A DNA stretch of 49,899 bases from Verrucomicrobiota bacterium (lineage in GTDB: Bacteria; Verrucomicrobiota; Kiritimatiellia; SS1-B-03-39; UBA6053). Each line of letters starts with the position of its first letter. Within the stretch, counting starts at the first letter, position 1. The stretch covers positions 1 through 49,899 of the forward strand of contig JAFIGC010000026.1 in the NCBI GenBank assembly GCA_020831635.1, given 5' to 3'. The notes under the pieces are model-generated. The model was not told the DNA's origin, did no database searches, and was given only the letters and a program-made list of their open reading frames with translations. A program made the translations under genes and the position numbers. Shown piece after piece: positions 11,910-45,193 of the stretch.

Positions 11910-11932
11910 GAGGACACTGATAGACACTGATC
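11910..11932 (+). repeat. CACTGAT 10-bp repeat, two units
   Basis: The sequence GGACACTGATAGACACTGAT has two CACTGAT cores exactly 10 bp apart. It belongs to the same family as the arrays at 28341-28440 and 30175-30205. Confidence 0.6.
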
Positions 11933-28161: not shown

Positions 28162-28243
28162 GGGTGAGGTCAAAATTCAGACTTCCTGTTATGTTGGGTT
28201 CAACATAACAGGAAGTCTGAAGGTAGAAGGGGCCACCTCACCC
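28162..28243. repeat. Two-level hairpin with TATGTTG-N4-CAACATA apex
   Basis: Positions 28176-28196 and 28201-28221 form a perfect 21-bp stem around the loop GGTT. Outside it, GGGTGAGGT (28162-28170) pairs with ACCTCACCC (28235-28243). The apex wording is shared with 2885-2944, the lower stem is not. Confidence 0.75.
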
Positions 28244-28340
28244 TTGGCAGAAGCCAAGGCACCGCAACACAGGGGCTGAAGCCCACTGTGTCGAAACCGG
28301 ATAAAGGGCCTGTTGATTTATTCCAGCACGAATAAGAATT

Positions 28341-28440
28341 AACCACTGATTTACACTGATTTACACTGATATTTAATATATTTAAATTAATTGGAATTCA
28401 AAATAATACATCAGTGTCCATCGGTGTCCATCAGTGGTTG
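28341..28440. repeat. Inverted pair of CACTGAT 10-bp arrays
   Basis: 28341-28370 is AACCACTGAT followed by two exact TTACACTGAT units (10-bp period). After a 40-bp AT-rich centre, 28409-28440 carries the same array on the other strand (AACCACTGAT, GGACACCGAT, GGACACTGAT). The whole begins with AACCACTGAT and ends with ATCAGTGGTT, so it is an inverted repeat built from two tandem arrays. Confidence 0.75.
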
Positions 28441-28586
28441 AATGAATCGACAGACTGCTGGAAGATGGAAAGCGAACATCGACCGGCCTTCCCCAAGCCC
28501 CAAAGCGGCAGCTCTGGTCGTTCCTCCCGGCGCTGCCGCACTCCAAAGACGCTTCGCGTCCGCACTCCGCACTCTTGAATCCGCAC

Positions 28587-30174: not shown

Positions 30175-30310
30175 AACCACTGATCACACTGATGTCCACT
30201 GATCCAAGGCGCTGGCTTTTGATTTTGGAAGAAGAACCACGGATGGCACGGATTCACACGGATGTTTAGGATTAAGATTAGGATTAAGATTAGGATTAGG
30301 ATTAGGATTA
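30175..30310 (+). repeat. Three abutting repeat families: CACTGAT, CACGGAT, GGATTA
   Basis: 30175-30205 has AACCACTGAT then CACACTGAT and TCCACTGAT (cores 9 and 10 bp apart). 30235-30264 has AACCACGGAT, GGCACGGAT and TCACACGGAT (again 9 and 10 bp). 30266-30310 is a hexamer array of GGATTA/AGATTA units. Partial inverted GGATTA-type units recur at about 30345-30370. All lie in the gap between the PsiE-like promoter and the TonB receptor gene. Confidence 0.7.
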
Positions 30311-30390
30311 TGAAAAGAATGGGAAATGACTCATTCCATTCTTCATCTTAATCCTGATCGTAATCCTTCTTCCGCAAGAAGAACCCGCCT

Positions 30391-44835: not shown

Positions 44836-45193
44836 ACATTCGGGATAGGGGAAAAGATCAAGGACCACCACTAATGTTTCATTTGACGTCTGCTCTTTTG
44901 AAACCTTTCGTGATTCCTTTTTCAGCCAAGAAAAGCACGAAATTTCACGAAAAGAATAAAGCCCCCCCATCTTGAGAACCTTTTTCGTGCCCTTTCGTGC
45001 CTTTCGTGGTTCTTCCATCATTTGAGGCCTGGTGGTCTGTCGAAGCCATCCGTGGTTTCAATGTAATTTCCTTCAATTGATAACCGGCTGTCACCGCCAG
45101 CAACCAACAACCCGCAACCAGCAACCAGCAACCTTCAACTGACAACTGCACAATTACCGTGACAGACGCATCTTTTTTTGGTGGGTAGGGAGA
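44836..45193. other. 358-bp spacer with CACGAAA arrays
   Basis: No gene is seen. 44912-44954 holds CACGAAA cores on both strands, with two on the plus strand in GCACGAAATTTCACGAAAAG. After a short spacer, 44980-45014 holds the same family on the minus strand (AACCACGAAAGG, CACGAAAGGG, CACGAAAAAG; cores 9 and 10 bp apart). 45099-45146 is a CAACC/CAGCAACC array. The dehydrogenase gene follows with its ribosome site in GTAGGGAGA. Confidence 0.65.

Follow-up and report, generated by a model that had tools for sequence, protein, structure and literature searches.

The window, the whole stretch of 49,899 nucleotides that was analysed, contains short iterated arrays built on the core word CACTGAT and on related words (Table 1). 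The arrays at 28341 lie head to head, as the original prediction stated; in either arm the units repeat every 10 bp exactly, and the centre between them is AT-rich and 39 bp long. Two further occurrences of the CACTGAT core that had been pointed out are also real, one of them with two units only (11915–11931) and the other with periods of 9 and 10 bp (30175–30203). The arrays at 30235–30263 and, on the minus strand, at 44983–45011 had not been noted before. The window has five anchored triple arrays; after dinucleotide shuffling (30 shuffles) the count is 0.0 per shuffle.

Table 1. Iterated arrays and associated terminal repeats in the window.
Feature	Position	Strand	Basis
Left terminal arm: AAC lead and three CACTGAT units, period 10	28341–28370	+	Sequence, AACCACTGATTTACACTGATTTACACTGAT
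AT-rich centre, 39 bp; place of the nuclease gene in full-length elements	28371–28409		Sequence and full-length forms
Right terminal arm, inverted: CACTGAT, CACCGAT (the single core mismatch), CACTGAT, period 10	28410–28439	−	Reads AACCACTGATGGACACCGATGGACACTGAT
Outer terminal inverted repeat AGGGCCTGTTGATTTATTC of the ~151-bp composite family	28305–28323	+	Copies in own genome
Outer terminal inverted repeat, degenerate right copy GAATGAATCGACAGACTGC	28440–28458	−	Sequence compared with family copies
Solo array of three units with core CACTGAT, at periods of 9 and 10 bp	30175–30203	+	Array scan
Solo array of three units with core CACGGAT, at periods of 9 and 10 bp	30235–30263	+	Array scan
Two-unit remnant, core CACTGAT	11915–11931	+	Sequence
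Solo array of three units with core CACGAAA, at periods of 9 and 10 bp	44983–45011	−	Array scan

Other repeats occur nearby. Positions 28170–28222 form a near-perfect inverted repeat, TTCAGACTTCCTGTTATGTTG GGTT CAACATAACAGGAAGTCTGAA, and similar copies were found in a genome of the same genus (G002, C282). At 30266–30375, GGATTA/AGATTA units stand in tandem and an inverted ATCCTGATCGTAATCC stretch comes after them. Short repeats of this kind are present in many class-level relatives and are possibly another family of end words.

The genome from which the window derives is 6.0 Mb in 308 contigs. It contains 404 unit pairs (201 + 203 matches to CACNGATN{2,4}CACNGA), and the reversed pattern, used as a control, gave 0. 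The arrays are neither as rare as base composition predicts nor all located inside known IS elements, the two outcomes that the original prediction had named as refuting it. We suspected that such arrays accompany GxxExxY genes, and searched the genome with PF13366. Five GxxExxY genes were identified, and all five proteins are members of TIGR04256 (84.8–148.8 bits against a cut-off of 35). Four of the five genes sit inside fields of arrays, and each field uses one core word: CACTGAT, the word of the window element, around gene C49, CACAGAT around C156, CACGGAG around C108 and CGCTAAT around C154. C49 lies at L031:5905–6306 on the minus strand and C156 at L049:1486–1848. The fifth protein is divergent and its gene has no clear array. 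At one locus (L031:4956–7073) more than 20 arms, mostly of alternating orientation and with near-identical blocks, surround a single nuclease gene; this is a local tandem amplification of whole elements.

We read the two arms at 28341–28439 as terminal inverted repeats that bound a mobile element, a point that goes beyond the original prediction, and this copy as one that lost its gene. Because the field around C49 shares its word, the C49 protein is plausibly the cognate nuclease of this copy. The window copy is part of a composite family of about 151 bp (here 28305–28458) with the outer inverted repeat AGGGCCTGTYGATTNATTC, of which 49 ends were found in the genome. The inner arms of this family carry CACTGAT, CGCTTAA or related words, and one copy is nested. 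Since the window copy lies inside this family, it is a gene-less derivative that may have been carried by a second element. No empty version of the site of the window copy was seen, since the contigs of relatives end at this point. Among the loci of the composite family (L265–L273), L269 has an element nested within a second one, and TTATTC stands on either side.

The gene found between the arms encodes GxxExxY (TIGR04256/PF13366), a RecB/Cas4-like PD-(D/E)XK nuclease of about 130 aa. All 40 members of the alignment match PF13366. D80 and K92 are invariant, Q104 and Y108 are nearly invariant, and [DE]-x-K occurs in the four own-genome rows. The combination of D80, [DE]-x-K92 and Q104-x3-Y108 fits the active-site motif of the RecB/Cas4 type. 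The AlphaFold2 model (pLDDT 93.9) has a long first helix. Its nearest solved folds are lambda exonuclease, Cas4-like proteins and Hjc/Holliday junction resolvases, none of them close (E above 1e-3), and the homing enzyme I-Bth0305I is a weak match at rank 25. The predicted fold is, with high confidence, of the PD-(D/E)XK type and falls in the region of lambda exonuclease, Cas4 and Hjc. Profiles of Cas4 and PDC-S02 are weakly similar, and no confident profile match to defence families was found. Our search of open-access journal papers found no publication that ties GxxExxY or PF13366 to repeats and none on such arrays, in keeping with the earlier remark that no named family with this grammar is known.

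A scan of bacterial and archaeal genomes added 80 GxxExxY loci from many phyla, archaea included. A detector that is blind to the core word finds 1.22 triple repeats per kb up to 1 kb from the gene and 0.14 per kb at distances beyond 2 kb. With the pattern C[AG]CN[AG]A, applied to 120 genes, an array lies within 800 bp of 93 genes, the first 100 bp alone holds 160 arrays, and density falls from 1.50/kb near the gene to 0.15/kb beyond 1.5 kb. The arrays point inward: those upstream are forward in 104 cases and reverse in 34, and those downstream are reverse in 103 and forward in 39. The gene therefore sits between the arms, where the window copy has its AT-rich centre. The flanks of 25 further genes show the same inward arrangement in nearly all cases, with unusually diverse end words. 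In 71 of 135 genes the two flanks share an inverted repeat above the 99th percentile of controls with mismatched partners. Elements have a median length of 474 bp (full-length range about 440–510 bp), which leaves room for one gene only.

Most arrays have three units (165/183), with a period of 9–10 bp in 327 of 366 steps, and the usual core of 7 nt reads C-A/G-C-N-A/G-A-N. The trinucleotide directly before the first core is mostly AAC, ATC, AGC or TAC. No CRC-type array was detected at 27 of the 120 genes. End words outside the CRC grammar, such as ACAGGAT and ACCACCCGCTC, were found at some genes and may account for some of these 27. GxxExxY genes with such words are those at L202, L203, L200, L205 and L214 (ACAGGAT; ACCACCCGCTC...CTGGAGA; AGAAGCCAAGAA). 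GxxExxY is encoded in seven plasmid records. On a Sphingomonas plasmid (NZ_CP155749.1, L221) an element with CGCGAAG-type ends lies between fabD and fabG of a fatty-acid operon. Carriage by phages was considered and discarded: no GxxExxY relative was detected, at the sensitivity used, in 50,697 phage records or in a scan of viral contigs.

Arrays and gene also go together across genomes. GxxExxY is carried by 228 of 387 genomes of the phylum to which the window belongs. Among 145 genomes of this phylum, at least three arrays are present in 55 of the 69 that are PF13366-positive and in 3 of the 76 that are PF13366-negative (odds ratio 96, Fisher p = 7e-23), and 1764 of the 1835 arrays lie in gene-positive genomes. 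When gene presence was shuffled within families, the observed count was reached in 0 of 20,000 permutations. Arrays without a detected PF13366 gene occur in three genomes (G018 with 41, G031 with 13 and G135 with 6). In 20 loci inspected near these arrays no degenerate nuclease gene was found; loss of the gene or assembly gaps are possible causes.

Occupied and empty versions of one site were seen at three places in one genus (g70). For this comparison the joined flanks of elements from one complete genome served as queries against 21 genomes of the genus, and the orthologous sites were compared; the gene names used here (nadE-, hemL-, ruvX- and truA-like) were read from sequence, not from annotation. 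Between nadE and hemL, eight genomes have an insertion of full-length size (453–557 bp) with arrays at both ends and the core CACTAAT, CGCTAAT or CACTGAT. Inserts of another size, with an array at the right end, are present in two genomes (G173 and G183), and a 75-bp degenerate gene-less piece is present in G171. Six genomes have no array at this site, and two (G172 and G174) have other DNA. Between ruvX and truA the full element is found in one genome, gene-less versions of about 70–75 bp in several, and nothing in two. At the third site an element is present in one genome and absent from five; in G101, one of these five, there is a direct stop-to-start junction. Full and gene-less forms at the same orthologous sites share the grammar of the terminal inverted repeats. 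Directly at the ends of 71 elements there is no excess of target-site duplications for k = 2–9; if the element ends are allowed to shift, a small excess of 6-bp duplications appears (4 against 0.5 expected). The lack of a detectable target-site duplication favours movement based on repair.

Which part of the arrays is under selection can be read from the two arms. Across 31 head-to-head pairs, 95% of core positions are the same in the two arms, against 74% for shuffled partners, whereas the spacers agree at 40%, against 31% for shuffled partners with a maximum of 43.5%. Since the cores agree and the spacers do not agree beyond chance, it is the units, not a hairpin, that are under selection. 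Of the two uses first proposed for the 10-bp spacing, recognition of the cores by protein is thus favoured, and a hairpin RNA or cruciform as the selected feature was rejected, as the unconstrained spacers argue against it.

Core words also follow the proteins. On a tree of 98 proteins the word changes far fewer times than when words are shuffled (for base 7, 15 changes against a mean of 41.9 and a minimum of 35). Each protein lineage has its own core word, and protein and words appear to change together. Four rules linking a residue to a base were fixed before 31 new genes were fetched (residues are numbered by the L049_1471 row). Residue 13, located in the first helix, splits G from A at core base 5 in all 68 training cases (T 46, V 17, A 5). 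In the new genes this rule was right in 18 of 19 cases (one-sided Fisher test, calculated by hand on the 2x2 table, ~5e-4), compared with 13/19 for guessing the majority and 21/31 for copying the nearest protein. Independent phylogenetic pairs are 5–0 in its favour, too few for significance alone. We rejected residue 107 as the reader of core base 2, which was perfect for R and P in training and failed in the new genes (16/25). The rule for residue 6 and core base 4 was right in 2 of 3 new genes, too few cases to judge. Residue 21 was right for base 7 in 23 of 25, yet nearest-neighbour guessing does equally well (30/31) and phylogenetic pairs are unsupportive; this residue tracks lineage and was also rejected. 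The comparisons give statistical support for one putative contact between protein and base, that of residue 13 with core base 5.

The observations to be explained are the anatomy of the elements, their insertion polymorphism at orthologous sites, the co-occurrence of arrays and gene, the lineage-specific cores and the one correctly predicted base. We consider it likely that the arrays serve as terminal inverted repeats in a family of small mobile elements, the full form of which carries one GxxExxY gene and most copies of which are gene-less, MITE-like pieces. We infer that the nuclease binds, cuts and moves the element. Several (three) nuclease molecules would bind the units of one end in phase, all on the same helix face. 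Both ends, once bound, would then be brought together and cut, and repair of the break would copy or move the element, either by cut-and-paste or by homing-like gene conversion. Gene-less copies would be moved in trans.

Other readings of the same observations differ in probability. GxxExxY could be a free-standing, homing-type selfish gene whose product cuts related arrays or empty sites and which spreads by gene conversion. PD-(D/E)XK homing enzymes exist, and the lack of a target-site duplication, the fact that only some genomes have an insertion between the operon genes of an orthologous site and the weak fold match to I-Bth0305I would all fit. A homing gene normally destroys its own site on insertion, however, and here both ends keep complete arrays; moreover, hundreds of dispersed gene-less copies are more MITE-like than expected of homing products. 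We therefore regard this reading as rather unlikely. It is improbable that the arrays are operators for a chromosomal function (nucleoid organisation, autoregulation or defence) served by a domesticated nuclease. Spacing in helical phase, conserved cores and the weak similarity to Cas4 and PDC-S02 point in this direction, but the distribution is patchy even within one genus, presence and absence alternate at orthologous sites, and defence families gave no confident match.

The arrays might instead be transcribed hairpins, either terminators or regulatory RNA, with the nuclease genes as passengers or acting on RNA. Head-to-head arms do form an inverted repeat, and many copies are intergenic. 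Against this, the arms are complementary beyond chance in their cores but not in their spacers, solo arrays occur, the core word tracks the protein lineage, and the insertion polymorphism shows that pieces come and go as units; such a role is very improbable. We give an equally slim chance to a Y1 tyrosine transposase (RAYT/TIRYT) that spreads the arrays as REP-like or TIRtron repeats, with GxxExxY merely nearby. The genome does encode 21 Y1_Tnp genes, the presence of Y1 correlates with arrays over genomes, though less strongly than PF13366 does (55/102 against 3/43, p = 3e-8), and TIRtrons are a precedent for Y1 genes accompanied by REP-like repeats and by terminal inverted repeats (PMC3733652). 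Nevertheless, an array lies within 800 bp of 1 of 20 Y1 genes, compared with the 93 of 120 GxxExxY genes, which excludes the Y1 transposase as the array partner in the manner of REP and RAYT. Among Y1-positive genomes the arrays track PF13366 (53/62 against 2/40, p = 5e-17), two genomes with 28 and 15 Y1 genes (G072 and G098) have no arrays, and Y1 genes are bracketed by arrays no more often than random genes.

Returning to the mobile-element reading, we lean towards a broader view in which bacteria and archaea share a class of elements whose lone PD-(D/E)XK nuclease of about 130 aa reads iterated 7-nt end words by a partly decipherable code, and which has seeded hundreds of gene-less copies. 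If so, it accounts for a large part of the anonymous intergenic repeats of CACNGAT type in environmental genomes, and the GxxExxY family, a protein family of so far unassigned role, gains a function that can be tested. Because many natural pairs of protein and site can be read from genomes, the code of DNA recognition can be worked out by comparison; it might be useful for the design of small sequence-specific DNA-binding proteins. A lone PD-(D/E)XK nuclease as the sole gene of an element with iterated ends would be a new mobility system.

Several known systems share parts of this plan. REPtrons (RAYT) also combine dispersed short intergenic inverted repeats, in species-specific families, with a lone small cognate enzyme gene bracketed by repeats. 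They differ in the enzyme (HUH Y1 there, PD-(D/E)XK here), in the GTAG tag at the end of the palindrome, which the arrays lack, and in having one stem-loop per end where the elements described here have three direct iterons. In TIRtrons (Di Nocera et al., 2013; PMC3733652) a single Y1 gene (TIRYT) is enclosed by terminal inverted repeats that are diverse and in part belong to repeated families. There too, one small nuclease-type gene lies between repeats that are also found dispersed, but the gene here is PDDEXK_3, not a Y1 transposase. MITEs of DDE insertion sequences are likewise short gene-less derivatives with the terminal inverted repeats of a full element, whereas the ~470-bp element here fits a nuclease gene only, has iterated ends and gave no target-site duplication. 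The encoded protein is a full-length member of GxxExxY (TIGR04256)/PDDEXK_3 (PF13366), for which open-access papers give neither a function nor an association with repeats; the arrays supply such an association. Rpn proteins (PDDEXK_2, YhgA-like) are also small lone PD-(D/E)XK nucleases and are annotated as putative transposases, but they form another Pfam family, and we know of no iterated terminal repeats associated with them. Recent work on Rpn reports toxin-antitoxin and anti-phage roles (PMC10327210). Free-standing homing endonuclease genes, finally, are selfish nuclease genes inserted between host genes, whereas the elements here are bounded on either side by iterated terminal inverted repeats and have hundreds of copies that lack the gene. 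We know of no type of element in which iterated ends enclose a PD-(D/E)XK gene as the only gene; on a more cautious view the system could be a variation on the TIRtron plan.
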